Positions 2,259 through 48,300 of a DNA stretch of 64,000 nucleotides are shown piece after piece (position 1 is the first letter of the stretch; every line of letters starts with the position of its first letter). Under the pieces are notes generated by a model that saw only the letters and a list, made by a program, of their open reading frames with translations, was not told the origin of the DNA and made no database searches. The DNA is taken from NCBI RefSeq assembly GCF_019112525.1, contig NZ_CP077800.1, positions 3,472,001 to 3,536,000 on the forward strand. The letters are read 5' to 3'. The position numbers and the translations under genes are program-made. This stretch comes from Modestobacter sp. L9-4 (lineage in GTDB: Bacteria > Actinomycetota > Actinomycetes > Mycobacteriales > Geodermatophilaceae).

Positions 2259-2312
2259 GGCCCCGTCCAGAGGCTCGCCGCGAGCCTGCGAGTGGTGAGG
2301 GGGACGGGGTCC
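2259..2312 (-). terminator. 3'-end hairpin element, copy A (after bcp)
   Basis: Copy of a dispersed family found just downstream of stop codons. Read on the minus strand, the gene-proximal arm GGACCCCGTCC (2312-2302) pairs with GGACGGGGCC (2268-2259) and leaves a single bulged A. A second internal hairpin (AGGCTCG/CGAGCCT) sits in the loop. The bcp stop codon is at 2319-2317. Confidence 0.6.
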
Positions 2313-2316
2313 TTCC

Positions 2317-2805
2317 TCAGGCGATGCCGAGGTCGCGCATCAGCTTGGCGACGTGGCCGGTGGCCTTGACGTTGTAGGAGGCCTTCTCGACCAGGCCCTC
2401 GGCGTCGACGATGAAGGTCGACCGGATGACGCCGACGACGTCCTTGCCGTAGAGCTTCTTCGGGCCGTACGCGCCGTAGGCGCCGAGCACGGTCTTCTCG
2501 GGGTCGGAGACGAGGGTGATCTGGAGGCCCTCCTTCTCCCGGAAGGTGAGCAGCTTGTCCGGGGCGTCGGGGGAGATGCCGATGATGTCGAGCCCGGCCT
2601 CGGCGAGGTCGCCGGCGGCAGCGGTGAAGTCGACCGCCTGGGTGGTGCAGCCGGGCGTGAGCGCCGCCGGGTAGCAGTAGACGATCACGCGCCGGCCCCG
2701 GTAGGAGGCCAGCGAGACGGGCGTGCCGTCGGCGTCGGGCAGGGTGAACTCCGGCGCCGGGTCACCGGGCGCGAGGCGGACGGGGGCGACGCTCGTCTCG
2801 GTCAT
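2317..2805 (-). CDS. bcp: Thioredoxin-dependent peroxiredoxin, Bcp/PrxQ family
   Basis: A 162-residue AhpC/TSA-fold protein that would reduce H2O2 and organic peroxides in the cytoplasm. The peroxidatic cysteine lies in LTPGCTTQA, followed by typical Bcp blocks (GISPD, VSDPE, YG, RSTFIVD). The resolving cysteine usually five residues after the peroxidatic one is absent (valine or aspartate region instead), so this looks like a 1-Cys Bcp. I start at the ATG at 2805; an in-frame start six codons upstream (2823) is also possible. Its nearest neighbour on the same strand is YjbQ, 45 bp upstream. Confidence 0.92.
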
Positions 2806-2850
2806 GGGCGCATCTTCCCGCATCCCGGGCGCGGGGGCCGAACCGGCTGG

Positions 2851-3255
2851 TCAGCCGGCCAGGAAGCTGAACCGCACGTGCCGCGTCGGGTTGTCGATGT
2901 TGGTGTCGACGAAGCAGATCCGCTGCCAGGTGCCCAGGGCCATCCGCCCCTCGAGCACCGGCACCGTCGCGTGCGGCGGGACGAAGGCCGGCAGCACGTG
3001 GTCGCGGCCGTGGCCGGAGGCGCCGTGGCGGTGGCGCCACCGGTCGTCGCGGGGGAGCAGCATGTCCAGCTGGGCCAGCAGGTCGTCGTCGCTGCCCGCG
3101 CCGGTCTCGATGATCGCGATCCCGGCGGTCGCGTGCGGGACGAACACCTGCAGCAGCCCGTCGCCCTCGTGGCGCACGAACTCCGCGCACTCGTCGGTCA
3201 GGTCGACCACCGAGGGGACGCCCCCGGTGCGCACGGCTCGCAGCTCCGATCGCAT
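2851..3255 (-). CDS. YjbQ/UPF0047 family protein (secondary thiamine-phosphate synthase-like)
   Basis: A 134-residue protein of the UPF0047 family. The family shows HATAGI (here [13 protein letters not shown]), a WRH-HG-GH segment ([15 protein letters not shown]) and a C-terminal LGTWQRI-F-D block; these His residues form the active-site pocket. E. coli YjbQ has weak thiamine-phosphate synthase activity, but the physiological role of the family is unsettled. No thiamine genes are nearby. The start is the ATG at 3255, which gives family length. It is transcribed towards bcp and divergently from rph. Confidence 0.88.
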
Positions 3256-3276
3256 GCCCGAGAGCCTCGCAGAGGT

Positions 3277-3337
3277 CACCGTTGTGCGCTCACGGCTGTC
3301 TCCGGCCGGGCGAGGCAGCCACGAGCGCACAACAGTG
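3277..3337. repeat. Long imperfect inverted repeat in the yjbQ/rph intergenic region
   Basis: Two 26-nt arms (3277-3302 and 3312-3337) separated by 9 nt pair at about 22 positions; both arms contain the core GTTGTGCGCTC or its complement. It lies between divergently transcribed genes, so it is not an ordinary terminator. It could be an operator, a small palindromic mobile repeat, or a structured leader of rph. Confidence 0.6.
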
Positions 3338-3412
3338 GCGCGCTCGCCGGACGTCTCGTGGACGCCGCCCTCGGACGGTCCCGGAGTGCCGGCGTCAGTA
3401 CCCTCGGACGGC

Positions 3413-4135
3413 GTGACCCGCCCCGACGGCCGCAGTGCCGACCAGCTCCGCCCGGTGACCATCACCCGCAACTGGCTCGACCACGCCGAGGGCTCGGTGC
3501 TGGTGGAGTTCGGCCGAACCCGGGTGCTCTGCGCGGCCAGCGTCACCGAGGGCGTGCCGCGCTGGCGCAAGGGCTCGGGCCTGGGCTGGGTGACCGCCGA
3601 GTACTCGATGCTGCCGCGGGCCACCCACACCCGCAACGACCGCGAGTCGGTCAAGGGCAAGGTCGGCGGCCGCACCCACGAGATCAGCCGGCTCATCGGC
3701 CGCTCGCTGCGGGCCAGCATCGATCTGTCCGCGCTGGGTGAGAACAGCATCGCGCTGGACTGCGACGTCCTGCAGGCCGACGGCGGCACCCGCACCGCGG
3801 CGATCACCGGCGCCTACGTCGCGCTGGCCGACGCCGTGTCCTGGCTGGGGGAGCGTAAGAAGCTGGCCCGGCCCACCGCGATCACCCAGTCCGTGGCGGC
3901 GATCAGCGTCGGCGTCATCGACGGGGAGCCGCGGCTGGACCTCGCCTACGAGGAGGACGTGCGCGCCGGCACCGACATGAACGTCGTCTGCACCGCCGAC
4001 GGCAACTTCGTCGAGGTGCAGGGGACGGCGGAGGGCGCGGTGTTCGACCGGCCGACCCTCGACCAGCTGCTCGACCTCGCCGTCGCCGGCTGCGCCGAGT
4101 TGACCGTGCTGCAGCAGCAGGCCCTCGCGGGATGA
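3413..4135 (+). CDS. rph: Ribonuclease PH
   Basis: A 240-residue phosphorolytic 3'-to-5' exoribonuclease that trims tRNA 3' ends. The protein opens with the family signature RPDGR-DQLRPV and contains [23 protein letters not shown], the basic [15 protein letters not shown] segment and the phosphate-binding region [20 protein letters not shown]. The GTG at 3413 is chosen because the preceding frame (to 2723) is unrelated sequence. Its stop overlaps the ATG of the next gene (ATGA), the familiar rph-rdgB arrangement, which implies translational coupling. Confidence 0.96.
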
Positions 4136-4740
4136 GCCGCCTCCTGCTGGCCACCCGCAACGCCGGCAAGCTGGCCGAGCTGCAGCGGCTGCTGACCACC
4201 GCCGTCCCCGGCGTCGAAGTCGTGGGCCTGCGCGACGTCGAGGAGTACCCCGAGGCCCCGGAGACCGGCGCGACGTTCGAGGACAACGCGCTGCTCAAGG
4301 CCCGCGAGGCGGTCCGGTACACCGGGCTGCCCGCGGTGGCCGACGACTCCGGCATCGCCGTCGACGCGCTCAACGGCATGCCGGGCGTGCTGTCGGCGCG
4401 CTGGTCGGGCCGGCACGGCGACGACCCGGCGAACACCGCGCTGCTGCTCGGGCAGCTGGCCGACGTGCCGGAGGAGCGGCGCGGCGCGGCGTTCGTCTGC
4501 GCCGCGGCGCTGGTCACCCCCGACGGGTTCGAGCACGTGCTCCGGGCGGAGTGGCGCGGCCGGGTCATCGGCGAGGGCCGGGGCACCAACGGCTTCGGCT
4601 ACGACCCGGTCTTCGTGCCCGACGGGCTGGAGCTGACCTCCGCGGAGCTCTCGCCGCAGGAGAAGGACGCGCGCAGCCACCGCGGCCAGGCGTTCACCGC
4701 CCTGCTGCCGGTGGTCGCCGAGGTGCTGAGCGGGCGCTGA
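4132..4740 (+). CDS. rdgB: dITP/XTP pyrophosphatase (RdgB/HAM1 family)
   Basis: A 202-residue Ham1-like NTPase that hydrolyses non-canonical purine triphosphates (dITP, XTP) to monophosphates, keeping them out of DNA and RNA. Signature blocks: [11 protein letters not shown] at the N-terminus, [37 protein letters not shown], the FGYDPVF nucleotide loop, and the C-terminal S-HRG-A block. Full family length. Coupled to rph by a 4-bp overlap. Confidence 0.96.
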
Positions 4741-4786
4741 CCCCGTCCGGTCAGCGCGGCCGGGCCGGGCGCGGCACAGTGGCGGC

Positions 4787-5707: not shown

Positions 5708-5708
5708 G

Positions 5709-5789
5709 TGCGAGAGGCGGGAGTCGAACCCGCACGCCCGAGGGCACCAGGACCTAAACCTGGCGTGGCTGCCGTTACACCACTCCCGC
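5709..5789 (-). tRNA. tRNA-Leu (UAG anticodon)
   Basis: A class II tRNA on the minus strand. Acceptor stem GCGGGAG pairs with CTCTCGC (one G-U), discriminator A. The anticodon stem CCAGG/CCTGG encloses TTTAGGT, giving anticodon TAG. The long variable arm (TGCCCTCGGGCGT) and T-arm GCGGGTTCGACTCCCGC are clear. CCA is not encoded. Confidence 0.95.
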
Positions 5790-5853
5790 GTACGGGGGAG
5801 TCTAGGAGCTCCTCATCCGGCCGGTCCCACCATGATCTGGCAGGCTGTCGCCC

Positions 5854-6129
5854 GTGCCACGCAGCCCCGAGCAGATCCAGCAGGAGATCGACGCCGCCCG
5901 AGAGTCCCTCGGGTCGACGTTGGACGAGCTGGCGTACCGCACCAACCCCACGCGGCTGAAGGCGCAGGGCAAGGCGAAGGCCCAGGCCTTCCTGCAGAGC
6001 CCGGCCGGCCTCGCCGTCGAGGGCGCCGTCGGTCTGGTGGTCACCCTCGTGCTGACGACCAAGGTCGTCCGCCGCGTCCGCAGCCGCCGCCGTGCCCGTC
6101 CTGCGCTCGGCAGCACCCGCCGACGCTGA
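5854..6129 (+). CDS. DUF3618 family small membrane-associated protein
   Basis: A 91-residue protein with the DUF3618 pattern: an N-terminal amphipathic helix (QIQQEIDAARESLGSTLDEL) that begins each chain in this actinobacterial family, a basic linker, one hydrophobic helix (AVEGAVGLVVTLVLTTKVV, about residues 54-72) and a highly basic C-terminus. The family often accompanies phage-holin-like membrane proteins; its function is unknown. It starts with GTG at 5854, and its 3' end overlaps the next gene by 38 bp in a different frame. Confidence 0.8.
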   Translation: MPRSPEQIQQEIDAARESLGSTLDELAYRTNPTRLKAQGKAKAQAFLQSPAGLAVEGAVGLVVTLVLTTKVVRRVRSRRRARPALGSTRRR

Positions 6130-6535: not shown

Positions 6536-6552
6536 GGCGCACACTCGCAGGC

Positions 6553-7050: not shown

Positions 7051-7056
7051 CGGGGG

Positions 7057-7071: not shown

Positions 7072-7082
7072 TGCTCCTGGGC

Positions 7083-7376: not shown

Positions 7377-7401
7377 CCCGATCGACCCCGAGGAGCCCCC
7401 T

Positions 7402-10580: not shown

Positions 10581-11660
10581 GTGACCGGCCCCGTCGACTC
10601 CGTGCGTCCCTCGTGGGAGACCCCGCGGTCTGCCCGCCGTCTCCTCCTGGCCAGCACCCTGAGCCACGTGCTGCCCAGCATCTCGCGGGTGGCCGGGGCC
10701 ATGGGGCTGCGCATCGGCACCGCCCCGGGACTGCTGGACGTCGTCGACGACGAGGGCGGCCGGCGGATCGACCGGCTGCTGCAGCGGCTGGCCCGCGAGC
10801 TGACCTCCGCAGAGACGGAGGCCGTGCGGGTCACCACCGACCCGCCCGCCGACGGTGTCGCGCTGGCCACCCGGCTGCTCACCGCGCCGACGCTCGCCGT
10901 CGAGCTCGCCCGCCGCGGCATCACCGTGGAGATGGGGCTGCTGACGGGCGCGGAGCTGTGGCCGGTCTACCAGCCGATCATGTCGCTGACCTCCGGCGGG
11001 ATGGTCGGCCACGAGGCGCTGCTGCGCGGCCGGGTCGACGGCCGCGAGGTGGGCGGCGGCGACCTGTTCTTCCTCGCCGAGCGCGCCGGCTGGACCCGCC
11101 GGCTGGACCGGCTGGCCCGCGAGGCGGCGATCAGCAACGCCGCCGGCTGGCTGGGCGACGCCGACCTGTACGTCAACTCCGACCCCGCGTCGATCTCCCG
11201 GCCCTCGGTCTGCCTGGCCAGCACCGAGCGGGCCGTGCACGAGGCCGGCATCGACCCCCGGCAGCTGGTGTTCGAGGTGGTCGCCTCGCACGCGGTCACC
11301 GACCGGGAGCACCTGCTGTCGGTGCTGGAGCACCACCGCTCACTGGGCTGGCGGGTCGCTCTGGACGACGTGGGCGTCGGCTGGTCCAGCCTGGCGCTGG
11401 TGTCGGTCGTGCGCCCCGACGTCGTCAAGCTGAGCAAGGCGCTCGTCGCCCGGCTGCACGAGCCCGGCCCGAACGCGATCGCCCGGGCGCTGACCGAGCT
11501 CACCCACCTGCACGGCGGCACGGTCGTCGCCGAGGGCGTGGAGTCCGAGCTGATGGCCGACCAGGCGCGGGCCGTGGGCGCCGACCTCGGCCAGGGCTGG
11601 CTGTTCGGCCGCCCGGTGCGCCCCGAGCCGGAGTCCGAGCCCGAGCTCGTCCTGGTCTGA
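10581..11660 (+). CDS. EAL-domain protein with some altered active-site residues
   Basis: A 359-residue cytoplasmic protein: an N-terminal region without recognised domain (1-120), then an EAL domain. Retained landmarks of c-di-GMP phosphodiesterases are Glu145 of HEALLRG, Asn199, Glu232, the Asp262-Asp263 pair, Lys283, Glu318 of AEGVE and Gln338. Two canonical acidic positions look changed: the residue after the conserved lysine reads KLS rather than KID, and the second Glu of the E-x-x-E element is missing. It may therefore be a slow phosphodiesterase or a c-di-GMP-binding effector. Start is GTG at 10581; a GTG at 10602 is an alternative. Confidence 0.85.
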   Translation: MTGPVDSVRPSWETPRSARRLLLASTLSHVLPSISRVAGAMGLRIGTAPGLLDVVDDEGGRRIDRLLQRLARELTSAETEAVRVTTDPPADGVALATRLLTAPTLAVELARRGITVEMGLLTGAELWPVYQPIMSLTSGGMVGHEALLRGRVDGREVGGGDLFFLAERAGWTRRLDRLAREAAISNAAGWLGDADLYVNSDPASISRPSVCLASTERAVHEAGIDPRQLVFEVVASHAVTDREHLLSVLEHHRSLGWRVALDDVGVGWSSLALVSVVRPDVVKLSKALVARLHEPGPNAIARALTELTHLHGGTVVAEGVESELMADQARAVGADLGQGWLFGRPVRPEPESEPELVLV

Positions 11661-11661
11661 C

Positions 11662-11763
11662 GGCCCCTCGCAGGGCCCCGCTCTGAGCTGGCGAGAGGCG
11701 AGGGTCAGGCCCCCTCGCAGGGTCCCGCCCTGAGCTCGCGAGGGGTGGGGGGTGAGGGGGTCC
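11662..11763 (-). terminator. 3'-end hairpin element, copy B (double; after histidine phosphatase)
   Basis: On the minus strand the copy next to the phosphatase stop has GGACCCCCTCA (11763-11753) pairing with CGAGGGGGCC (11717-11708), again with one bulged A. A second, more diverged copy follows (11707-11662). The stretch 11706-11729 is identical to the complement of a stretch in copy C at 14.7 kb. Confidence 0.62.
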
Positions 11764-11767: not shown

Positions 11768-12367
11768 TCAGGCGCTGACGGTGTTCCAGCCGATCAGCGC
11801 CGGCCAGTCGTGCTCGAGACCGAGGACGCCGAAGCGGCCGGTGGCCAGCGGGAAGATCGCGCCCTTGTCCGGGTCCAGGCCCAGCCAGCGGGCGGTGAGG
11901 ATGCGCAGCACGTGGCCGTGGGCGACGAGCGCGACGTCGCCGTCGGCCAGCAGCGGCCGGGCCTTGGCCAGCACCCGGTCGACGCGCTCGGCCACCTGGT
12001 CGAGGCTCTCCCCGGGGGTCGCGCCGGGCTCGGTGCCGTCGACCCACAGCGACCACGGGTGCCCGAGCTCCTCGCGGATCTCCGGGGTGGTCCTCCCCTC
12101 CCAGCGGCCGTAGTCGACCTCGACCAGGTCCGGGTCGATCTCGGCCTTGATGCCGTGGTCGAACAGGCCGGCCAGCTCGGCGGTGCGCCGTGCCCGGGTC
12201 AGCGGGCTGACGAAGGCGTGCGTGATGTTCAGCTCGCCCAGCACGGGCCGCAGCCGCCGGGCGTCGTCCTCACCGCCGGGCAGCAGCGGCAGGTCGGTCA
12301 GACCCGTGTGCTGCCCGCTCGTGCTCCACTCGGTCTGTCCGTGCCGGACGACGACGATCTCACCCAC
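11768..12367 (-). CDS. Histidine phosphatase family protein (phosphoglycerate-mutase-like)
   Basis: A 199-residue broad-specificity histidine phosphatase. The catalytic RHG motif is in VVVRHGQTEW (His at residue 9), with SPLTRARRTAE, the acid residue in DLVEVDYGRWEG, and the second catalytic His in VALVAHGHVLRIL. The family hydrolyses small phosphorylated metabolites; the substrate is not predictable here. Its start overlaps the end of the upstream MFS gene by 8 bp, so the two are translationally coupled. Confidence 0.9.
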   Translation of the reverse strand: MGEIVVVRHGQTEWSTSGQHTGLTDLPLLPGGEDDARRLRPVLGELNITHAFVSPLTRARRTAELAGLFDHGIKAEIDPDLVEVDYGRWEGRTTPEIREELGHPWSLWVDGTEPGATPGESLDQVAERVDRVLAKARPLLADGDVALVAHGHVLRILTARWLGLDPDKGAIFPLATGRFGVLGLEHDWPALIGWNTVSA

Positions 12368-13810: not shown

Positions 13811-14665
13811 ATGACGACCCCCACCACCTCGCGCACCTTCGACCTCGGCGGCGACCTCACCGTCCACCGCCTCGGCTACGGCGCCATGCAGCTCACCGGA
13901 CCCGGCGTCTGGGGCGAGCCCGCCGACCGCCCCGGCGCACTCGCCGTGGTCAAGGCCGCGATCGAGCAGGGCGTCGACTTCATCGACACCGCCGACTCCT
14001 ACGGCCCGCAGGTCAGCGAGCAGATCATCGCCGAGGCGGCGTTCCCGTACCCCGACGGCCTGGTCATCGCCACCAAGGCCGGCCTGACCCGCACCGGCCC
14101 CGGCGAGTGGCCGCCGGTCGGCCGCCCGGCGTACCTCAAGCAGCAGGTCGAGCTGTCGCTGCGCAACCTCAAGGTCGACCGGATCGACCTGATCCAGCTG
14201 CACCGCATCGACTCCGAGGTGCCCCTGGCCGACCAGCTCGGCGCGTTCGCCGAGCTCAAGGAGCAGGGCAAGGTGCGCCACATCGGTGTCTCCGAGGTCT
14301 CCGTCGACGAGCTCAAGGCAGCCCGGGAGATCACCGAGATCGTCTCCGTGCAGAACCTGTACAACCTGACGAACCGGCAGTCCGCCGACGTCCTGGCCTA
14401 CGCCGAGGCCGAGGGCATCGCCTTCATCCCGTGGTTCCCCATCGCCACTGGTGACCTGGCCAAGCCCGACAGCCCGGTCGCGGCGGTCGCCGAGGAGCTC
14501 GACGCGACCCCGTCGCAGGTGGCGCTGGCCTGGCTGCTGCAGAAGTCGCCGGTCATCCTGCCCATCCCGGGCACGAAGTCGATCGACCACCTGACCGAGA
14601 ACATGGCCGCCGCGCAGCTCACGCTGTCCGCCGACGACATGGCCGCGCTGGACGCTCTCGCGTGA
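13811..14665 (+). CDS. Aldo/keto reductase
   Basis: A 284-residue NADPH-dependent oxidoreductase with a TIM-barrel fold. The catalytic tetrad is recognisable: Asp and Tyr in FIDTADSYGP, Lys in IATKAGL, His in LIQLHRID. The NADPH-binding segment PSQVALAWLLQKSPVILPIPGTKS is intact. It is of the YghZ/oxidoreductase type that reduces aldehydes and ketones; the substrate is unknown. ATG at 13811 follows a GGAGGA ribosome-binding site by 5 bp. Confidence 0.93.
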   Translation: MTTPTTSRTFDLGGDLTVHRLGYGAMQLTGPGVWGEPADRPGALAVVKAAIEQGVDFIDTADSYGPQVSEQIIAEAAFPYPDGLVIATKAGLTRTGPGEWPPVGRPAYLKQQVELSLRNLKVDRIDLIQLHRIDSEVPLADQLGAFAELKEQGKVRHIGVSEVSVDELKAAREITEIVSVQNLYNLTNRQSADVLAYAEAEGIAFIPWFPIATGDLAKPDSPVAAVAEELDATPSQVALAWLLQKSPVILPIPGTKSIDHLTENMAAAQLTLSADDMAALDALA

Positions 14666-14669: not shown

Positions 14670-14724
14670 GGACCCCCTCGCCCCCCACCACTCGTACCTC
14701 GTGGCGGGACCCTGCGAGGGGGCC
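14670..14724 (+). terminator. 3'-end hairpin element, copy C (after aldo/keto reductase)
   Basis: GGACCCCCTCG (14670-14680) pairs with CGAGGGGGCC (14715-14724), leaving the bulged A at 14672. The loop contains a CCAC/GTGG sub-hairpin. It starts 4 nt after the reductase stop and is in the sense of that gene. Confidence 0.65.
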
Positions 14725-21952: not shown

Positions 21953-22498
21953 GTGGTGGCCCCTCCGACGACGGAACTGATCGTGCTGGTCGACGACCAC
22001 GGCACGGCGATCGGCACGATGCCCAAGCCGCTGGTGCACACCGGGGAGACGCCGCTGCACCGGGCGTTCTCGGCCTATCTCTTCGCCGATGACGGCCGGT
22101 TGCTCGTCACCCGGCGGGCGGAGTCGAAGGCGACCTTCCCCGGCATGTGGACCAACACCGTGTGCGGGCACCCCGGCCCCGACGAGGACGACGCCGACGC
22201 GATCGCCCGCCGCGCGGAGTACGAGCTCGGTCTCGGCGTCGTCGACCTCCGGCCCGCGCTGCCCTCCTACCGCTACCGCGCGGAGTTCCGCGGGGTCGTG
22301 GAGAACGAGATCTGCCCGGTCTACCTCGGCCGCTTCTCCGGCACCCCGCAGCCGGACCCCTCCGAGGTGGGGGAGTGGGAGCTGCTGGAGTGGGCGGCGT
22401 TCCGCGACCGCCAGGAGACCCAGGAGTACGAGGCCTGGTCACCGTGGTGCCGCGAGCAGGCCCGCCTCATCGAGGCCAACCACCTGCTCCCGATCTGA
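21953..22498 (+). CDS. idi: Isopentenyl-diphosphate delta-isomerase, type I
   Basis: A 181-residue Nudix-fold enzyme that interconverts IPP and DMAPP for isoprenoid, carotenoid and quinone synthesis. Landmarks: LHRAFSAYLF, LLVTRRAESKATFPGMWTNTVCGHP with the catalytic Cys (TNTVCGHP), the acidic metal site around RRAEYELG, and RAEFRGVVENEICPVY with the catalytic Glu (NE-CPVY). Family length is about 180. The start is one of two tandem GTG codons (21953 or 21956). It diverges from the c-di-GMP gene. Confidence 0.95.
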   Translation: MVAPPTTELIVLVDDHGTAIGTMPKPLVHTGETPLHRAFSAYLFADDGRLLVTRRAESKATFPGMWTNTVCGHPGPDEDDADAIARRAEYELGLGVVDLRPALPSYRYRAEFRGVVENEICPVYLGRFSGTPQPDPSEVGEWELLEWAAFRDRQETQEYEAWSPWCREQARLIEANHLLPI

Positions 22499-22501: not shown

Positions 22502-22581
22502 AGGACCCCGCCGTCCCCGTGTGGGGCGGCAGGGCCTCCGGCGCCCTCCAGGGGCTCGTCCTCAGCTGGCGAGGGGGGTCC
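22502..22581 (+). terminator. 3'-end hairpin element, copy D (diverged; after idi)
   Basis: AGGACCCC shortly after the idi stop faces GGGGGGTCC at 22573-22581, and an inner GCCG-CCCC/GGGGCGGC hairpin lies at 22510-22530. It is the most diverged member of the family and lacks the GGCC distal end; it also separates idi from the convergent MEDS gene. Confidence 0.45.
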
Positions 22582-22615: not shown

Positions 22616-23593
22616 TCAGGCGTTGACGACGAGGCGGACGGTGCAGCCGTCGCCGGAGTCGTCGGCCGGTGCGGCCGTGAGGCTGTCGACCGAGCGGCGG
22701 GCCAGCCACAGGCCCATGCCGCCCACGGCCATGTCGCCGTGGGCCGGGCCGTAGCCGACCAGCGGGTCGTCGAAGGCTGCGCCGCGGTCGGTGATGGCGC
22801 ACAGCAGCCGCTCGGGCGTGGACCACAGCCGCACGTCGACCGGCGGGATGCCGTGCTCGGAGGCGTTGGCGGTGACCTCGTCGATGGCGAGCACGAAGTC
22901 CTGCGCGGCGTCGGCGGACAGCGCGCTGTCGGCCAGCACCCGGGTGAGCGCCCGGCGGAGCGCGCGCAGGTCGTCGAGGTCGTCGATCGCCAGCGTCGGC
23001 TCGGTCTCCTCCAGCGGGTCGGGCACCGAGGCGCGCTGGACCTCGCGCAGCAGCTCGGCGGGCTCGCGGAAGCCGGGGTTGCGCACGGTGCCGGCCTCGG
23101 TGAGCAGCCACGGGTGGGTGGCGTGCACGACGGCGTCGACGTCGACAGGTGAGCCCTCCCCGGCACCGGTCGTCCCGACCGGCCCGAGCAGGCAGATGTG
23201 GTCGACCGGGCGCTCGGCCAGGACGTGGTTGAGCAGCGCCTCGGTCTGCATCCACACGGCCGGGTCGGTGTGCGGGCCACCGGGGCCGGTGACCAGGTGC
23301 AGCCGCCGCCCCCCTCCGGGGGCGCGGGCGTCGACCAGCTCGGCGATCGCGGCCAGCGCGGCCGGGGGCCGGTCGTCCAGCGGGTCGGTCGGGGCGACGA
23401 AGACGTCGCCGATGCCCTCCAGCGTGGCGAGCACGGCGGCGGCGACCGCCTCGGGGCAGGCCACCACCACGGGCTCCCCGGCGGCGACGGCGCGGCGCAG
23501 GACCGGGCCCACGACCGCCGTGAGGTCCAGATCGGCCCCGAGCACGTGTCCCACGTGCCGGTAGCCCTGGTGCTCCTCGATGCTGTGCGTCAC
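22616..23593 (-). CDS. MEDS sensor-HATPase (RsbW-like) regulatory protein
   Basis: A 325-residue protein with an N-terminal MEDS (DcmR-type sensory) domain (GYRHVGHVL near residue 12, a P-loop-like Rossmann core to about 190) and a C-terminal histidine-kinase-like ATPase of the RsbW/anti-sigma type (about 205-325). The N-box is FVLAIDEVTANASEHG, followed by ITDRGAAFDD and GGMGLWLARRSVD (G-boxes). It has no DHp phosphoacceptor domain, so it is not a standard histidine kinase. It probably acts in serine-kinase or partner-switch signalling, possibly opposed by SpoIIE phosphatases in this window. Confidence 0.87.
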   Translation of the reverse strand: MTHSIEEHQGYRHVGHVLGADLDLTAVVGPVLRRAVAAGEPVVVACPEAVAAAVLATLEGIGDVFVAPTDPLDDRPPAALAAIAELVDARAPGGGRRLHLVTGPGGPHTDPAVWMQTEALLNHVLAERPVDHICLLGPVGTTGAGEGSPVDVDAVVHATHPWLLTEAGTVRNPGFREPAELLREVQRASVPDPLEETEPTLAIDDLDDLRALRRALTRVLADSALSADAAQDFVLAIDEVTANASEHGIPPVDVRLWSTPERLLCAITDRGAAFDDPLVGYGPAHGDMAVGGMGLWLARRSVDSLTAAPADDSGDGCTVRLVVNA

Positions 23594-28521: not shown

Positions 28522-28797
28522 ATGAGCGAGCAGAGCCCCGACCCCACCCTCCCCGACACGGCGATGGCCACCGGCAACGACCAGGGCGAGCCCGGCCACC
28601 CCGACACCCGCCCGCTGGCCAAGGCGGAGCGCAAGCTGCTCGAGAAGCTGCAGAAGCCGGGCAAGGGCGAGGCCGAGCCGGCCGTCGAGGACTCCCCGGA
28701 GGTCGCCGCGGCTGCGGCCGACGACGCCCCGCTGGCCACCGACGAGGTCCCCGGCGGCAACGACGACGGGCTGGACCCGGAGTTCACCGACCGCTGA
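28522..28797 (+). CDS. Small acidic hypothetical protein
   Basis: A 91-residue, very hydrophilic and acidic protein (many Glu, Asp, Pro, Ala) with one basic helix-like segment, LAKAERKLLEKLQKP, near residue 34. No known domain and no signal peptide; it is probably largely disordered. The ATG at 28522 has a strong GGAGAGAGG ribosome-binding site. It follows the sortase by 41 bp and is immediately followed by 3'-end element E. Function unknown. Confidence 0.72.
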   Translation: MSEQSPDPTLPDTAMATGNDQGEPGHPDTRPLAKAERKLLEKLQKPGKGEAEPAVEDSPEVAAAAADDAPLATDEVPGGNDDGLDPEFTDR

Positions 28798-28800: not shown

Positions 28801-28858
28801 AGGACCCCCGTGCCCCCCACCACTCGCACGCTCGTGGCGGGGCCCTGCACGGGGGCCT
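28801..28858 (+). terminator. 3'-end hairpin element, copy E
   Basis: AGGACCCCCGTG (28801-28812) pairs with CACGGGGGCCT (28848-28858), leaving a bulged A. Compared with copy C the stem bases TCG/CGA are replaced by GTG/CAC, so pairing is preserved. The distal arm runs into the stop codon of the convergent phytochrome gene. Confidence 0.68.
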
Positions 28859-31193
28859 AGGGGAGCTGCGGGTTCAGCCGGACGGCGACCAGGGCCACGT
28901 CGTCCTCGGCGCGGTCGGGCACCAGCCGGGCGAGCAGCTGGTCGGCGACCTCGTGGACCGGCAGCTCCCACAGCGTGCCCAGCTCCTCGCGCAGCTGGTC
29001 GACCCCGGTGTCGAAGAGCTGGTCACGGCGCTCGACCAGACCGTCGGTGTAGAGCAGCACCGTCGCCCCGCGGGACACCGTCAGCACGTGGTCCTGCCGC
29101 CGGGCGCTGGGCTCGACGCCCAGCAGCAGGTCGGGCCGGGTGCCGTCGAGCACCCGGATCTGCCCGTCGGCGTCCACGACGACCGGCGGCAGGTGGCCGG
29201 CGTTCGACCAGCGCAGCCGGGTGACGCCCTGGGCGACCTCCTCGGGGGTCTGCTCCAGCCGGGCGACGAGCACCGAGGCCATGGCGTCGATCTCCAGGCC
29301 GGCGATGGCCCGGTCGAGCCGGGTCAGCACGCCGGCGGGGCTGTCGGCACTGTCGTAGGTGATGCCCCGCAGCAGCCCGCGGAGCTGCCCCATGGTGGCC
29401 GCGGCCTCGGTGTCGTGACCGACCACGTCGCCGATCACCAGCACGGTCGCCCCGTCGGGCTGCTGGAACACGTCGTACCAGTCGCCGCCCACCTGGGAGT
29501 CGCGCGCGGCGGGCACGTAGCGCACCGCGAAGTCCAGGTGGTCGGGGTCCGGGGGCTCCGACAGCAGGCTGCGCTGCAGGGTGATCGCGGTGCGGGCCAC
29601 CCGGCGGGAGCGGGCGTACAGCGCCTCGACCAGGTTCCTGCGCAGCTCGGCGGCCTCGGTGAGCTCGGCCGGCGTCCACGCCTCGGCGCGGTTGCGCACG
29701 GTCTCCCGCCACCGGTCGAAGGACTTCCGCGGCGACAGCCGGACGGTGTCGCCCTCGCGCTGGGCGATGGCCTTGTTGTGCGGGTCGCCGCCCCAGTCGA
29801 CCGCGCGCACCTGCTCGCCGCGGGTCCAGATCACGTACTGGCCCTCGGCCAGCGACAGCGCGAGGACGCCGGAGACCAGCTCGCCGGGGATGCCCAGGTG
29901 CGGGGCGACCAGCGGCAGCCGGTCGGTGCTCACCACGTCGCCGCCCTGCTCGGCGACCCAGGCCGCGAGGGCCGCCCCCACCTCCGGCGGCAGCGGCACG
30001 CCCGCGCCGCCGGTGGACCCCTGGAGGTCGACCATGACGGAGTCGGCCGGGACGACGTCGAGCAGGCCGGGCCGGCCGAGCATCGTCTCGGCGAGCGGCC
30101 GCTCCTCGTCCAGCGCGGCCGCCGTCAGCCAGGCCATCGTGGAGCGGACCCGCAGCGCGCGCCGGTGCTCCTCGTCCTCGGTGCGGTCGACCAGGCGCAG
30201 CGACAGCGTCGAGCCCAGGAACTCCGCGGCTGCGCGGGTGGCGTAGGGCGGGGCGTGCGAGCCGGTGTAGTGGTGGCAGGCGATGAGCCCCCAGAGCTTG
30301 TCGTCGCGCAGCAGCGAGATCGACATCGAGGCCGCCACGCCCATGTTCTGCAGGTATTCGCAGTGGATCGGCGAGACGCTGCGCAGCGTGGAGTAGGTGA
30401 GGTCCAGCGGCTGCCCGGTGGCGGGCAGGTCGACCGGCTCCAGCCGGGACGGCGTGTAGGTGACGTCGTCGATGAGCCGGACCCAGTTCTTCTCGTACAG
30501 GGCCCGGGCCTGGGCCGGGATGTCCGAGGCCGGGTAGTGCAGGCCCAGGAAGGAGTTCAGCTCGGGGAGCTTGGCCTCTGCGACGACCTCGCCGTTGTAG
30601 TCGGCGTCGTAGCGGTAGACCATCACGCGGTCGAAGCCGGTGAGGGTGCGCACCGCCTGGGCGGTGATGTCGTAGAGCTCCTGCAGCGAGCTGGCCCGGT
30701 TGAGCTCGGTGATCGTGCCGCGTACCGCCTGGTAGGTGTTCGGGAACGAGAAGGGGCGCGGCCCGTAGGCCGGCTCCAGCTCGACCACCAGCGTGCTGGC
30801 GCTGGGCAGATCGGGTGTGGCCGCGGTGTGCGGCACGCGGTGCAGGATCGCGTCGACCGGGGCGGGGGCGCCGTCGCGGTCGAGGATGAGCTCGACCGGG
30901 TTGCGCTCGCGCAGGTCACCGAAGGCGCTCGCCGAGCGGGCGATCGCGTCGGCCGGCACGATCCCGACGACCTCGGCCAGCGGACGGCCCAGTGCGTCGT
31001 CCCAGGCGACGCCGACGACGTCGGCGAGGTTGCGGGAGACCTGGCGCACGACCATGTCGGGCTCGCTGAGCGCCAGCAGGACGCCGCGGGGCTGCACGCT
31101 GCCCGGGACGTGGATCGGCTCGCGCTCGCAGTTGGTCAGGTCGACCGGCTCGCCGGGCGCCAGCCACGGGCCGGACTGCAGCTGCTCGGTCAC
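28857..31193 (-). CDS. bphP: Bacteriophytochrome with SpoIIE (PP2C) phosphatase output
   Basis: A 778-residue red/far-red photoreceptor. In order: PAS2 (about 10-135) with the biliverdin-attachment Cys22 in NCEREPIHVPG-VQPRG; GAF (about 150-320) with HYPASDIPAQAR (Asp224) and the chromophore His pair in IACHHYTG; PHY (about 335-515) with the tongue motif PRKSF; then, in place of a histidine kinase, a SpoIIE phosphatase (about 555-775) with GGDWYDVF, VIGDVVGHD, SNAGHLPP, YTDGLVERRD and EDDVALVAVR. Light should thus gate dephosphorylation of an anti-anti-sigma-like partner. Start is GTG at 31193, overlapping the stop of the heme oxygenase gene, which supplies the chromophore. Confidence 0.95.
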   Translation of the reverse strand: MTEQLQSGPWLAPGEPVDLTNCEREPIHVPGSVQPRGVLLALSEPDMVVRQVSRNLADVVGVAWDDALGRPLAEVVGIVPADAIARSASAFGDLRERNPVELILDRDGAPAPVDAILHRVPHTAATPDLPSASTLVVELEPAYGPRPFSFPNTYQAVRGTITELNRASSLQELYDITAQAVRTLTGFDRVMVYRYDADYNGEVVAEAKLPELNSFLGLHYPASDIPAQARALYEKNWVRLIDDVTYTPSRLEPVDLPATGQPLDLTYSTLRSVSPIHCEYLQNMGVAASMSISLLRDDKLWGLIACHHYTGSHAPPYATRAAAEFLGSTLSLRLVDRTEDEEHRRALRVRSTMAWLTAAALDEERPLAETMLGRPGLLDVVPADSVMVDLQGSTGGAGVPLPPEVGAALAAWVAEQGGDVVSTDRLPLVAPHLGIPGELVSGVLALSLAEGQYVIWTRGEQVRAVDWGGDPHNKAIAQREGDTVRLSPRKSFDRWRETVRNRAEAWTPAELTEAAELRRNLVEALYARSRRVARTAITLQRSLLSEPPDPDHLDFAVRYVPAARDSQVGGDWYDVFQQPDGATVLVIGDVVGHDTEAAATMGQLRGLLRGITYDSADSPAGVLTRLDRAIAGLEIDAMASVLVARLEQTPEEVAQGVTRLRWSNAGHLPPVVVDADGQIRVLDGTRPDLLLGVEPSARRQDHVLTVSRGATVLLYTDGLVERRDQLFDTGVDQLREELGTLWELPVHEVADQLLARLVPDRAEDDVALVAVRLNPQLP

Positions 31194-33184: not shown

Positions 33185-34120
33185 GTGCCCGTCCTGCAGA
33201 AGGCCCTGCTCACCGCCTCCCGCCGTCCCGCCCTGCGCCGGGTGGTCACCGGCACGCCGGTCAGCCGCCGGGTGGTCGACCGCTTCGTCGCCGGGGAGAC
33301 GCTGCCCGGCGCGCTGGCCGCCGTCCGGGCGCTGGCCGCCGACGGCATCGGCGTGACGCTGGACCACCTGGGCGAGGACGTCACCGACCGCGCCGAGGCC
33401 ACCCGCAGCCGGGACGCCTACCTGGCCGCGCTCGAGGGCCTCGCGCCGCTGGGCCTGGGCCGGGCCGCCGAGGTGTCGGTCAAGCTGTCGGCGTTCGGCC
33501 AGGCGCTCCCGGTCGGCGGGGACGACGTCGCGCTCGCCCTCGTGCGCCCGGTGGTCGAGGCCGCCACGGCGCTGGGCACCACGGTGACCCTGGACATGGA
33601 GGACTCCTCCACCGTCGACTCGACGCTGGCGATCGTGGCCGAGCTGCGCCGCGACCACCCCGGCACCGGTGCGGTCCTGCAGGCGATGCTGCACCGCACC
33701 GAGGACGACGTCCGCGCCCTCGCCGTCCCCGGGTCGCGGGTGCGGCTGGTCAAGGGCGCCTACCGCGAGCCCGCGACCGTGGCCCACCAGGACAAGCCGG
33801 CCGTCGACGCCGCGTACGCCCGCTGCCTGGAGACGCTGGTGCGCGGCGGCGGGTACCCGATGGCCGGGACGCACGACCCGGCGCTGATCGACCGGCTGCT
33901 GCAGCTGGTCGCCGAGACCGGGCGGGCCGCGGACTCCTACGAGTTCCAGCTGCTCTACGGGATCCGCCCCGAGGAGCAGGTCCGCCTCGCCCGCGCCGGG
34001 CACACCGTGCGCGCCTACGTGCCCTACGGCGCCGACTGGTACGGCTACTTCATGCGCCGGCTGGCCGAGCGCCCCGCCAACCTGCAGTTCTTCCTCCGCT
34101 CGCTGGCCACCAAGAACTGA
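33185..34120 (+). CDS. Proline dehydrogenase (PRODH)
   Basis: A 311-residue monofunctional PutA-type TIM-barrel flavoenzyme that oxidises proline to pyrroline-5-carboxylate with FAD, passing electrons to quinone. Conserved blocks: GVTLDHLGEDV, VSVKLSAFG, LDMEDSS, LQAMLHRTEDD, RLVKGAYREP (active site), THDPALID, FQLLYGIRPEEQ and AYVPYGADWYGYFMRRLAERPANL. Complete. GTG at 33185. It is followed by pruA after a 92-bp gap that contains hairpin element F. Confidence 0.95.
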   Translation: MPVLQKALLTASRRPALRRVVTGTPVSRRVVDRFVAGETLPGALAAVRALAADGIGVTLDHLGEDVTDRAEATRSRDAYLAALEGLAPLGLGRAAEVSVKLSAFGQALPVGGDDVALALVRPVVEAATALGTTVTLDMEDSSTVDSTLAIVAELRRDHPGTGAVLQAMLHRTEDDVRALAVPGSRVRLVKGAYREPATVAHQDKPAVDAAYARCLETLVRGGGYPMAGTHDPALIDRLLQLVAETGRAADSYEFQLLYGIRPEEQVRLARAGHTVRAYVPYGADWYGYFMRRLAERPANLQFFLRSLATKN

Positions 34121-34124: not shown

Positions 34125-34180
34125 GGACCACCCCTCCCCCCACGACCCGCAGGCTCGCCGCGGGCCCCGGAGGGGCGGCC
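34125..34180 (+). terminator. 3'-end hairpin element, copy F, between PRODH and pruA
   Basis: GGACCACCCCTCC (34125-34137) pairs with GGAGGGGCGGCC (34169-34180), with the family bulged A. It begins 4 nt after the PRODH stop but lies inside an apparent two-gene operon, so it may attenuate or stabilise PRODH mRNA rather than stop all transcription. Confidence 0.58.
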
Positions 34181-34212: not shown

Positions 34213-35838
<1,626 letters not shown>

Positions 35839-42147: not shown

Positions 42148-42152
42148 ATCGG

Positions 42153-44326: not shown

Positions 44327-44437
44327 GCCCGGGACCGGCCCGCCGATGACGTAACGTCGGAGCGGACCGCCGCCGTCCCGCCGCGGGAACCGCCGCGTCC
44401 CGCGCCGCCCGCACGTCACCTGCCCCCTGGAGAACCC

Positions 44438-46246: not shown

Positions 46247-46255
46247 GCCGGTGCC
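46229..46255 (+). terminator. Terminator overlapping the stop of the NERD-like gene
   Basis: GGCACCGGCTC (46229-46239) pairs perfectly with GAGCCGGTGCC (46245-46255); the stop codon 46244-46246 lies at the loop and right arm. Convergent with the ferritin gene. Confidence 0.7.
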
Positions 46256-46297
46256 ACCCGGCCGTGCCGGGAGGCGGGGCCGCCCGGCCGCGTCGGG

Positions 46298-46828
46298 TCA
46301 GTCCTTGGCGCCGGCGATCGAGGGGGCCATCGGGTCGGCACCCTCGGGGCGGACCTCGCGCAGCACGTAGTCCTCGATCGTCTCCAGGTCGTGCGTGGAG
46401 CGCTTCACGATGGCCAGCAGGTCGCTCATCTTGCTGACCTCCTCGACCTGCTCCTTGATGAACCACTGCATGAACTGGTCGGAGGCGAAGTCGTTGTGCT
46501 GGCGGGCGACCGCGGTGAGCTGGTTGATCTGCTCGGTGACCCGCTTCTCCTGCTCCAGGGCCAGGGCGACCGGGGCGACCACGTCGGGGAAGCCGTTGAT
46601 CGGGGCGGCGATGCCGGGGACCTGCACCGAGGCGTCGGCGTCGAGCAGGTAGCGCACCATCATCATCGCGTGGTCGCGCTCCTCGCCGGCCTGGTCGAAG
46701 AACAGCTGCGCGGTCTGCGGCATGGTCAGGTCGTCGAAGTAGACGGCGATCGCCACGTACTGCTGGTGGGCGGCGAACTCGTGGCCGATCTGGGCGTTGA
46801 GCAGGTCGATGAAGGCGTCGGCGGCCAT
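46298..46828 (-). CDS. Ferritin (iron storage, BfrB-like)
   Basis: A 176-residue non-heme ferritin that stores iron as a 24-mer cage. Ferroxidase-centre residues are visible: Glu in IGHEFAAHQQY, Glu and His in GEERDHAMMM, Glu in ALEQEKRVTEQ, and QFMQWFIKEQVEE on the fourth helix. No methionine heme ligand pattern typical of bacterioferritin is needed. Length matches mycobacterial BfrB. ATG at 46828. An IdeR/DtxR-like box lies 80-98 bp upstream, a position where IdeR activates ferritin in mycobacteria. Confidence 0.94.
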   Translation of the reverse strand: MAADAFIDLLNAQIGHEFAAHQQYVAIAVYFDDLTMPQTAQLFFDQAGEERDHAMMMVRYLLDADASVQVPGIAAPINGFPDVVAPVALALEQEKRVTEQINQLTAVARQHNDFASDQFMQWFIKEQVEEVSKMSDLLAIVKRSTHDLETIEDYVLREVRPEGADPMAPSIAGAKD

Positions 46829-46907
46829 CGGGACTCCCGGTCGGTGCGAGGGGTGGGGCGTTCTCCGAACGGTAGCGGGCCGGGCGCCCCACCCGGGCGG
46901 CGGTCAG

Positions 46908-46926
46908 CAAGGCATGGCTAACCTCA
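46908..46926. promoter_or_regulatory. IdeR/DtxR-like iron box upstream of ferritin
   Basis: CAAGGCATGGCTAACCTCA matches 13 of 19 positions of the IdeR/DtxR consensus, including the full GGCTAACCT half-site. It lies between the divergent ferritin gene and a small Cys-rich ORF and overlaps the -10 candidate of the latter (46919-46924). Confidence 0.6.
46919..46924 (+). promoter_or_regulatory. Candidate -10 for a leaderless transcript
   Basis: TAACCT is followed by 6 nt and then the GTG of the small ORF at 46931, the spacing of actinobacterial leaderless mRNAs. No Shine-Dalgarno sequence precedes that GTG. Confidence 0.45.
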
Positions 46927-46930
46927 CCAC

Positions 46931-47083
46931 GTGGCGAAGTCGGCGAAGCTGCCCAAGAGCAAGTGCTGCGAGGACCGCCCGCGGTGCACCCGCTGCCCGC
47001 TGCGCGCCCTGGCCGAGGGGACGCTCCCGCCCGGGTACACGGTGAAGAAACGCCGCCTGGTGAAGGTCGGCAAGGCCGCCTGA
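46931..47083 (+). CDS. Small Cys-rich protein (50 aa) beside ferritin
   Basis: A 50-residue basic protein with a four-Cys cluster: KCCEDRPRCTRCP (Cys12, 13, 19, 22), followed by a basic tail rich in Lys and Arg (VKKRRLVKV). The spacing suggests a small zinc- or iron-binding knuckle. It begins at GTG 46931, apparently without a leader, inside reach of the IdeR-like box, so iron regulation is plausible. No function is known to me. Codon use (GC at third positions) fits a real gene, and a terminator hairpin follows 17 nt after the stop. Confidence 0.7.
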   Translation: MAKSAKLPKSKCCEDRPRCTRCPLRALAEGTLPPGYTVKKRRLVKVGKAA

Positions 47084-47100
47084 GCCGCACGACCCGCTGA

Positions 47101-47143
47101 GCGGAGTGGATCCGTCGATGTGACGCCGACGGGTCCACTCCGC
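47101..47143. terminator. Bidirectional terminator, Cys-rich ORF/quinone reductase
   Basis: 17-bp arms (47101-47117 and 47127-47143), one G-U pair, 9-nt loop, between the convergent small ORF and quinone reductase gene. Confidence 0.75.
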
Positions 47144-47149
47144 CACGGA

Positions 47150-48163
47150 TCAGGCGGTGACGTCGACGAGCACCTTGCCGGTGACGCCGTCCTCGACGGC
47201 CTGGTGGGCCGCGGCGGTGTCGGCCAGCGGGAAGACGTGCAGCGGGAGCCCGGCGTCCTCACCGACCCGGACGGCGCCGTCGAGCACCGCGGCGTTGACG
47301 TCCTCGACGCCGACGTCCTTGGCCCGGGTGGGCTCGGTGTAGACGAGCACGAACTGCCAGCGGGCGTTGGGCCCCATCTGGGTGCGGATCGGGATGGTGA
47401 CCTCGTCACCGCCGTCGTTGGCGTAGATGGCGATCGCGCCGTGCGGGGCGATGACCTCCGCGTCGATCGCGGCGTTCGCCGCCGGGGCGACCTCGACGAT
47501 CGCGTCGACGCCGTGCGGCACGATCTTGCGCACCTCGGCGACGACGTCCTGTCGCTTGTAGTCGATGACGTGGCTCGCGCCGGCCGCGGCGGCCAGCTGG
47601 GCCTTGCGCGGGCTGCTCACCGTGGCGATGACGGTGGCGTCGGCCCAGCGGGCGAGCTGGATGGCGGCGTTGCCGACGGCGCCGGCGCCACCTTGCACGA
47701 GCACGGTGCGGCCGTTCAGCGAGCCGGGGGAGAGGCGGTCGGGGAGGGACTCCGCGACGGTGAGGCAGCGGTGCGCGGTGAGGAACGGGATGCCGAGCGC
47801 GGCGCCGAGCTCGAAGGAGGCGTCGGCACCGAGGAGGACGGTCTGCCGGGCCGGGACGACGGTGTACTCGGCGGCGGTCCCGTGGGGACGCTGCCAGGCG
47901 GCCTCCCAGATCCAGACACGCTCACCGACGAGGGCCGGGTCGACGCCCTGGCCGACGGCCTCGACCGTGCCGGCGCCGTCCTGGTCGGGGACCTGGCCGC
48001 CGGGGCCGGGCCGGCTCCCGCTGCGGGACTTCCAGTCGGTGGGGTTCACGCCCGAGAAGGCCAGGCGGACCAGCACCTCACCGGGTCCGGGTTCGGGGGT
48101 GTCGCGGTCGACGAGCTGCAGGACGTCGGGACCGCCGGGCTGGGTGTAGGTGATCGCTCGCAC
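47150..48163 (-). CDS. NADPH:quinone reductase-like MDR oxidoreductase
   Basis: A 337-residue zinc-independent medium-chain reductase of the QOR type. It has the GroES-like N-terminal domain (FSGVNPTDWKSRSG, VPDQDGAGTVEAVG), the cofactor motif VLVQGGAGAVGNAAIQLA (NADPH Rossmann, about 155-172) and YKRQD after it. No structural zinc Cys cluster is present. It probably reduces quinones or enones for detoxification. ATG at 48163. Confidence 0.92.
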   Translation of the reverse strand: MRAITYTQPGGPDVLQLVDRDTPEPGPGEVLVRLAFSGVNPTDWKSRSGSRPGPGGQVPDQDGAGTVEAVGQGVDPALVGERVWIWEAAWQRPHGTAAEYTVVPARQTVLLGADASFELGAALGIPFLTAHRCLTVAESLPDRLSPGSLNGRTVLVQGGAGAVGNAAIQLARWADATVIATVSSPRKAQLAAAAGASHVIDYKRQDVVAEVRKIVPHGVDAIVEVAPAANAAIDAEVIAPHGAIAIYANDGGDEVTIPIRTQMGPNARWQFVLVYTEPTRAKDVGVEDVNAAVLDGAVRVGEDAGLPLHVFPLADTAAAHQAVEDGVTGKVLVDVTA

Positions 48164-48200
48164 GACCCGCTCCTACCCGCAGTTCCCCGCCCCGATCATC

Positions 48201-48300
48201 GGCCCCTCGCAGGGACCCGCGCCAGGTCGGAGCGCCCCGTCCTCCTCGCCCTCGCGCGCTCGGGACGAGCCTCGGGGCGGGGTCGGGGGCGGAGGGGTCC
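48201..48300 (-). terminator. 3'-end hairpin element, copy G (after whiB)
   Basis: On the minus strand GGACCCCTC (48300-48292) pairs with GAGGGGCC (48208-48201), with one bulged A. The loop is longer than in other copies. It starts 10 nt after the whiB stop. Confidence 0.55.

Follow-up and report, generated by a model that had tools for sequence, protein, structure and literature searches.

A dispersed, probably REP-like palindromic element behind stop codons in Modestobacter and other Geodermatophilaceae

Introduction

In passages of PMC3733652, REPs are described as carrying a GTAG tag, which in some families is degenerate at the second and third base, as being found mostly where the flanking genes are co-directional or convergent, and as often supplying TAG stop codons. 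Passages of PMC8266576 give their length as 20-50 nt and state that a mismatch in the stem of the E. coli REP is required by TnpA-REP. The main text of PMC3733652 contains none of the terms Geodermatophil-, Blastococcus, Modestobacter and Actinobacteria, and in the passages concerned of a paper on Geodermatophilaceae genomes (PMC9686282) palindromes are named only for CRISPR.

The repeat analysed here comes from Modestobacter sp. L9-4. It resembles the GTAG-tagged REPs (GTAG-1 to 24), as these are portrayed in passages of PMC3733652, in being a short extragenic palindrome of high copy number with complementary changes in its stem, in having a putative tag at its 5' foot (a GTNG located two bases from the stem), and in lying behind genes, at co-directional or convergent open reading frames, where stop codons can be supplied. 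With the E. coli REP, according to the relevant part of PMC8266576, it shares a tag, here a putative one, followed by a long palindrome with a conserved mismatch, the irregularities of which tell the tagged strand; it is slightly longer than the REPs dealt with there. Like the CGTC-tagged REPs, which according to the abstract of PMC3733652 are apparently without a dedicated transposase, it apparently lacks a Y1 transposase of its own in the genomes searched; its tag is a different one, however. A U-less GC hairpin soon past the stop codon is also characteristic of the mycobacterial I-shaped terminators as outlined in part of PMC12288462. These form a structural class, whereas the Modestobacter element is a dispersed sequence family that turns over between species. 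No report of this repeat in Geodermatophilaceae was found among the top-ranked papers of each search of the openly licensed PMC literature.

Results

An earlier note on the window, i.e. the whole stretch of 64,000 nucleotides that was analysed, had assigned seven loci (A to G) to one family of gene-end hairpins, which in its view pointed to selection and not to chance. A covariance model with 17 training rows (including A, C, E and F, with B outside training) was used to search the 4.22 Mb genome. It detected at least 141 copies of one repeated element, 126 of which are 54-57 nt long; all copy numbers are lower bounds, since no more than about 150 candidates were scored in each genome (14 in searches of over 40 genomes), a limit that the 141 copies nearly reach. 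The plain pattern GGACCCCN{20,50}GGGGCC matched the genome 140 times compared to 45 times for the reversed control. The family is thus real, not due to chance, and much larger than the seven loci. As a short palindrome present over 100 times in the genome, for the most part outside genes, it is REP-like, in the broad sense, in copy number. Modestobacter belongs to the Geodermatophilaceae, a family dwelling mostly in soil and on rock, and the model matched the element in 73 of the 75 genomes of this family that were listed. Density was lower in stretches of genomes G001, G005, G014 and G019 (15 matches in 800 kb), and a strict scan gave no match in genomes G203 and G393. Rfam 15, applied at the gathering score, recognised three tRNAs and no other known structured RNA family within the window. 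A few tandem runs (e.g. L285) and one nested inverted copy (locus G) were noticed without a systematic count.

Five loci of the window are canonical copies with model scores of 62-80 bits, and in every case the distance from the preceding TGA stop codon to the start of the copy is exactly 4 nt. Copy A (2259..2312, minus strand; GTCC subtype) follows an AhpC/TSA-family gene (2317-2805, minus), the next gene being co-directional. Copy B (11708..11763, minus) lies behind a histidine-phosphatase gene (11768-12367, minus) and has a convergent EAL-domain gene as neighbour (10581-11660, plus); directly after it, a degenerate second half-copy can be read from the sequence (11662..11707, minus) which is not among the model matches. 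A degenerate repeat is also located behind copy C (14670..14724, plus), whose upstream gene encodes an aldo/keto reductase (13811-14665, plus). Copy E (28802..28857, plus) fills the gap between gene 28522-28797 (plus) and the convergent gene 28857-31193 (minus). Finally, copy F (34125..34180, plus) is found between the genes for proline dehydrogenase (33185-34120, plus) and aldehyde dehydrogenase (34213-35838, plus), 32 nt ahead of the start of the latter.

The two remaining loci differ from these. At locus G, an outer copy (48201..48300, minus) read from the sequence behind a WhiB-family gene (48311-48661, minus) is interrupted in its apical part, and an inverted GTCC-type copy lies inside it (48231..48285, plus). 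The model matches the inner copy only (31.5 bits, E 0.0048), and the counterpart in genome G010 is a single copy without interruption; the locus reads as one copy nested in another. Locus D (22502..22581, plus), situated between a NUDIX gene (21953-22498, plus) and a convergent gene (22616-23593, minus), was dropped as a member: it is absent from the model matches and folds as two adjacent hairpins. The proposed grouping holds for A, B, C, E and F, and also for G if this locus is read as two copies, one within the other. The single bulged A (GG-A-CC...CC) was present in the five canonical copies as well as in the arms of the outer G copy, and the stem exchange between C and E was confirmed (TCGC/GCGA to GTGC/GCAC). 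By contrast, 'CCCCCCACC', formerly taken as a loop common to B, C and E, is the 5' arm of the inner helix.

The unit consists of a 5' leader, GTNG-RA, and two stacked helices. Where the leader overlaps a stop codon, it reads TGANGAA. As claimed earlier for the bulge, the helix irregularities are conserved, and they are so genome-wide; they comprise the bulged A, an A-C mismatch (93 of 121 held-out rows) and an NCCCT internal loop. A 5' tetranucleotide tag, a feature of REPs in the broad sense, was looked for in 40 copies without an overlapping or nearby stop codon (30 from the genome itself and 10 mainly from other genera, no row dropped): 35 have G at position -6, 20 have T at -5, 30 have G at -3 and 31 have A at -1. 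The putative tag reads GTNG in stop-free copies and GANG where TGA overlaps; exact GTAG is rare.

Position and orientation were evaluated with genes called by our own codon-usage script, not from an annotation, and 136 copies were counted as intergenic after leaving out five of the 141 that the caller placed inside genes. Of these, 126 lie behind a gene on the same strand, 116 of the 126 starting 0-11 nt past its stop codon; in 66 the distance is exactly 4 nt. Between co-directional genes 69 copies are in sense and 8 in antisense orientation, and divergent gaps hold 2 of the 136. Such a location, behind open reading frames between co-directional or convergent genes, is that of REPs in the broad sense, and the orientation relative to genes proposed in the earlier note proved correct. 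Twelve of the 69 co-directional sense copies leave less than 50 nt to the gene that follows; one of these is the copy within the proline dehydrogenase-aldehyde dehydrogenase pair. In 378 kb, copies are located at 13 of the 66 convergent gene pairs, at 12 of the 222 co-directional pairs and at none of the 66 divergent pairs. C precedes TGA at 82 of 93 occupied ends versus 218 of 317 unoccupied ends of the 378 kb. TAG stops occur at 18 of 116 occupied versus 15 of 332 unoccupied ends, and TAA stops at 5 of 116 versus 0 of 332.

Stem covariation was strong in 121 held-out copies, above that of all 500 shuffles, although copies found by the covariance model lean toward its structure. RNAalifold, run on the same alignment (3 of 124 held-out copies left out for length), returned 11 pairs, 10 of which have two-sided changes. 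The covarying stems seen in the window were thereby reproduced. Absence of orientation bias and of covariation had been set beforehand as grounds for giving up the claim; both are present genome-wide.

The type of stem change was not that expected of an RNA, in which G-U should be tolerated above A-C. In 211 copies, the stems contain 25 G-U pairs versus 40 A-C mismatches (19 versus 32 and 6 versus 8 in the two subsets), a contrast that on its own is not significant (p 0.08) and is drawn from mutually related copies. This count leaves out 24 of 182 and 4 of 57 copies that were not end-alignable, one 30-nt match, and 3 of another 60 matches. A small control of 36 tRNA acceptor stems, taken from genomes of the same kind (2 of 38 distinct tRNAs left out) gave 8 G-U pairs versus no A-C mismatch. 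The antisense strand is the better fold in 137 of 141 copies (50% for random 56-mers), the A-C mismatch of the sense strand being a G-U wobble on the antisense strand. Behind the hairpin, a U-tract (at least 4 T in the next 8 nt) was found in 1 of 141 copies; the mean number of T in these 8 nt is 0.8 on the sense side versus 2.9 on the antisense side, where 32 of 141 tails have at least 4 T. Since the U-tract is missing, a canonical (L-shaped, Rho-independent) terminator was rejected. Gene ends of every class, like shuffled versions of them, often form hairpins below -20 kcal/mol, and hairpin energies did not discriminate between occupied and unoccupied ends because sequence of 75% GC folds strongly anyway.

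Turnover between species was assessed at 86 orthologous loci, a set that excludes paralogous matches. The element was present in sense at 19 of them, i.e. its occurrence is patchy. Identity between copies at the same site was 0.82 (11 pairs) versus 0.79 for random pairs (p 0.016), and at one site genomes G001 and G019 have nearly identical apices and differ by a single compensated stem pair. This excess likeness and the G001/G019 site indicate that part of the change happens in place. No clean insertion with target duplication was seen at the compared sites in relatives, where neighbouring bases were altered too.

A Y1 (RAYT/IS200-like) transposase was searched for with PF01797 and was found in none of 23 genus genomes and none of 112 family genomes, while 5 of 14 control genomes were positive. 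A RAYT-borne REP (REPtron) was rejected because no Y1_Tnp was found in these genomes. A search for an IS91-type Y2_Tnp gave no match in 23 genomes, yet was uninformative as its controls also gave none.

Discussion

The element departs from GTAG-tagged REPs in its length, its two stacked helices and the rarity of exact GTAG, in its sharp spacing of 4 nt from the stop codon and its strong sense bias, and in that neither a Y1 protein nor an excess of G-U pairing was found. From the E. coli REP/TnpA-REP system it is set apart by the lack of TnpA-REP or any other Y1 protein in the 112 family genomes; the likeness described here is one of layout.

The earlier note had concluded from directionality, bulge and covariation that selection acts on an RNA structure of the sense strand. 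A family of RNA 3' ends of this kind, serving as terminator or mRNA stabiliser, would account for the 69 sense versus 8 antisense copies, for the 116 of 126 starts within 0-11 nt of the stop codon, for the near-absence from divergent gaps (2 of 136 copies; 0 of 66 pairs) and for the covariation in held-out copies. In addition, U-less 'I-shaped' terminators are, in the pertinent part of PMC12288462, the predominant shape in M. tuberculosis; on the need of the mycobacterial polymerase for a U-tract, two titles in the references of that review conflict. We nevertheless consider this explanation unlikely, given that G-U pairs are not in excess, that the complementary strand folds better in all but a few copies, and that a U-tract follows in one copy only. 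Moreover, for 12 of the 69 sense copies between co-directional genes the next gene is under 50 nt away, occupancy of orthologous ends is patchy (19 of 86), and other gene ends have hairpins of similar energy. The covariation does not look like sense-RNA selection. If the functional fold were instead on the antisense strand, stopping antisense or convergent transcription just before the 3' end of the gene, the better antisense fold (137 of 141 versus 50% for random 56-mers), the G-U wobble at the A-C mismatch (93 of 121 rows) and the T content of the antisense tail (2.9 versus 0.8) would be explained. That tail, however, is mostly the complement of stop codon and leader and has at least 4 T in 32 of 141 copies only, and orientation is unchanged (69 versus 8) in co-directional gaps, in which the gene caller placed no antisense gene, which makes such a role improbable. 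Chance GC-rich palindromes, conceivable in a genome of 75% GC whose gene ends and shuffles commonly form hairpins below -20 kcal/mol, are refuted by the common primary sequence of at least 141 copies, by their sharp spacing and by a covariation that exceeds all 500 shuffles.

The explanation we favour, with reasonable though limited confidence, is that of a palindromic, REP-like DNA element dispersed in the genomes of Geodermatophilaceae. Copies would spread or be overwritten as DNA via a single-stranded hairpin, through an enzyme or template switching, and insertions would persist mainly behind stop codons. There, a hairpin about 4 nt past the stop codon would probably form the 3' border of the mRNA and block 3'-end decay; it might also make the terminating ribosome pause, or perhaps weakly aid transcription termination. 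Against this explanation stand that no Y1 transposase was found in the 112 family genomes, that no clean insertion with target duplication was seen, and that the tag is rarely exactly GTAG. The tight 4-nt register and the sense bias fit an mRNA function as well as targeted insertion, and palindrome correction instead of spread could be the source of the covariation. More tentatively, and in our view rather doubtful, the element may be a mobile hairpin aimed at stop codons: a non-Y1 activity would recognise single-stranded hairpins that have GTNG/TGANG at their foot, placing them about 4 nt behind (C)TGA, so that genes of the family gain and lose 3' ends as cassettes whose stems are replaced on species time scales.

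Covarying stems among dispersed copies may pass for selection on an RNA fold, which calls for caution. REPs in the cited papers are mostly proteobacterial, and those of the GTAG kind are linked to RAYT enzymes for their spread. With an actinobacterial REP-like family in which no Y1 enzyme was found, RAYT-free spread of REP-like repeats becomes testable, and the stop-codon register does the same for the effect that a hairpin 4 nt past the stop codon may have on mRNA ends and terminating ribosomes.

Copy number and taxonomic distribution

A covariance model (R1), built from a 17-row alignment of copies, was used to search the Modestobacter sp. L9-4 genome (G000; a single contig of 4.22 Mb in which the window, with a GC content of 75.4%, spans G000:C1:3472001-3536000) and the genomes of its relatives. 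The hairpin family is real: at least 141 copies were found in G000 (150 candidates scored), and a contiguous 378 kb of this genome held 27. All 23 Modestobacter genomes scanned with R1 matched, with 10 to at least 147 hits each, and one of the 16 genomes from beyond the genus did so, weakly. Stretches of four other Modestobacter genomes, 800 kb in all, had a lower density of copies (15 hits). In an order-wide scan, 76 of 397 genomes matched at E up to 1e-4, namely 73 in Geodermatophilaceae and three in other families. The latter (G078, G088 and G173) each yielded one or two good matches, with best E values of 2.6e-10 to 2.5e-9, which may reflect transfer or contamination. An exact-pattern search of named genomes returned at least 116 stretches, and the matches listed were all titled Geodermatophilaceae or its genera (Geodermatophilus, Blastococcus, Modestobacter, Klenkia, Goekera, Trujillonella). 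No earlier description of the element was found in the openly licensed literature searched.

Copies in G000 lie mostly on the minus strand in the first half of the chromosome (34 minus, 17 plus at 0-2.1 Mb) and mostly on the plus strand in the second (61 plus, 29 minus at 2.1-4.2 Mb), a pattern that probably arises through gene strand bias. Sparse regions lie at 0.70-1.06 Mb (two copies) and 1.76-2.11 Mb (three copies).

Element structure and position

The canonical element measures 54-57 nt in 126 of the 141 copies; an example is copy C, behind an aldo/keto reductase gene (GGACCCCCTCGCCCCCCACCACTCGTACCTCGTGGCGGGACCCTGCGAGGGGGCC). Its outer helix, GG-A-CCCCNNNGC / GCNNNGGGG-CC, contains the bulged A, its inner helix, CCC-A-CCNC / GNGG-C-GGG, an A-C mismatch, and its 3' internal loop reads NCCCT. 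A second subtype, to which copy A belongs, has GTCC/GGAC in the outer helix. The covarying stems and fixed bulge reported in the earlier note were recovered in 121 copies outside R1 training (three of 124 omitted for length): 90.4% of pair cells were paired, 13 of 18 stem pairs had two-sided changes, none of 500 shuffles matched the real alignment on any of five measures, and the covariation score was 0.328 versus at most 0.106 for slid partners. The bulged A was kept in 79 of 88 cleanly starting rows and the A-C mismatch in 93 of 121; the loop bases C-C-C-T were conserved in 114, 109, 120 and 105 of 121 rows, respectively. Conservation extends to the unpaired bases.

Orientation relative to stop codons was determined with genes called by a codon-usage script. 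In G000, 136 of 141 copies are intergenic, with 57 between convergent and two between divergent genes. The proposed sense orientation held up between co-directional genes, where 69 copies were sense and eight antisense (69/77, p 3e-13); split by chromosome half and gene strand, sense-to-antisense counts were 4 to 1, 23 to 3, 31 to 1 and 11 to 3. Behind a same-strand gene, 116 of 126 copies start 0-11 nt past the stop; a distance of exactly 4 nt accounts for 66 of them, every one after TGA. Among the 57 convergent pairs, the sense gene's stop lies 0-11 nt away in 51 and the other gene's at -1 to 11 nt in 20. By gene calls, 13 of 26 copies mainly of other genera, picked without using the leader pattern, also start 4 nt after a stop. 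The leader reads GTNG-RA in the 40 copies with no nearby stop and mostly TGANGAA where it overlaps one, and occupied gene ends are enriched for C before TGA, for TAG and for TAA stops. Within the 378 kb, none of the 66 divergent gene pairs was occupied by a copy, against 13 of 66 convergent pairs and 12 of 222 co-directional ones.

RNA fold or DNA-level change

The earlier note had taken these features to suggest selection on a sense-strand RNA structure, an inference that is weakened by the pairing and folding data. Selection on the sense RNA fold predicts a greater tolerance of G-U than of A-C in the stems. Outer stems of 158 Modestobacter copies (end-aligned copies only; 24 of 182 could not be so aligned) contained 1342 standard pairs, 19 G-U, 32 A-C and 29 others, and those of 53 copies mainly of other genera six G-U and eight A-C. 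Pooled over 211 copies, G-U showed no excess over A-C (25 versus 40, a difference with p 0.08), whereas 36 tRNA acceptor stems, used as control, gave eight G-U versus no A-C (Fisher p 0.001). Moreover, the antisense strand folded better in 137 of 141 copies with RNA parameters (mean -39.9 versus -32.6 kcal/mol for sense) and in 130 of 141 with DNA parameters; in 300 random 56-mers neither strand was favoured. Stem changes alone are therefore no evidence of selection on sense mRNA and are consistent with DNA-level processes, either replacement by other copies or palindrome correction.

Turnover between species

Orthologues of four window genes were surveyed at 86 loci in the genus. A sense copy lay behind the stop at 19 loci: 3/21 for copy F (proline dehydrogenase, PRODH), 5/21 for C, 5/23 for B (histidine phosphatase) and 6/21 for A (AhpC/TSA family). 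Three further gene B loci had an antisense copy behind the stop, and several loci without the element hold unrelated palindromes at that place. The native stop codon was often, not always, identical with and without the element. Directly behind the PRODH stop of other Modestobacter genomes, different palindromes of CCAAAATGGCCATTTTGG and CCAAAAGCGTGCTTTTGG types occur (L170, L174, L177, L180, L181, L183), an indication that hairpins next to stop codons fall into several families.

Same-site copies in G000 and a second Modestobacter genome, G010, had a median identity of 0.82 versus 0.79 for random pairs (11 pairs), a small, significant difference (p 0.016). In the eight copy pairs with readable outer stems (three skipped), 56 of 72 stem pairs were unchanged, 10 had two-sided changes with pairing kept and six involved a non-pair. 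At one site the apex is almost identical in the Modestobacter genomes G001 and G019, which show one compensated stem-pair difference, and G005 differs in apex and stem; change in place and replacement therefore both seem to occur. Locus G (48201-48300) reads as a copy within a copy, the second inverted (48231-48285, +), and its G010 counterpart is one plain copy. The clearest gain seen is in G005 (L438:2315-2368), where a copy of the GTCC type with the leader AGTAGAA takes the place of about 14 bp at a site that G001, G014 and G019 have in common. Head-to-tail runs, with later units that lack part of their foot, were found at L285:1776-1936 (G010), L311:3328-3431 and L304:233-336, possibly through tandem amplification.

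Comparison with known REP systems

As portrayed in excerpts of PMC3733652, GTAG REPs share the element's layout of a tag, two bases and a palindrome with complementary stem changes, and likewise lie behind genes, sometimes supplying the stop. The same excerpts take frequent G-T pairing in REPs as a sign of transcription; the Geodermatophilaceae element has no such excess. TnpA-REP requires a mismatch in the REPs of E. coli, according to extracts of PMC8266576, and the A/C irregularities on the tagged strand of the Geodermatophilaceae element are similar to it. Y1_Tnp, the enzyme linked with GTAG REPs, was detected in none of 112 family genomes and in five of 14 control genomes; excerpts of a phylogenomic study (PMC6006769) assign only subclass 1.1 of Y1 genes to Actinobacteridae. 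Because Y1_Tnp is missing, the element is named REP-like and not filed as a RAYT-REP system. Two family genomes listed, G203 and G393, lacked a match in the strict order-wide scan; other genomes of their genera match, and the two could help to identify an element-linked gene.

The element is most likely a stop-registered, REP-like DNA repeat. The RepRanger paper (PMC12306157, in part), citing earlier work, states that REPs at most 15 nt from a stop can stall ribosomes; by distance, the 116 of 126 copies starting close behind a same-strand gene would belong to this class, and an effect of the element on mRNA is plausible.
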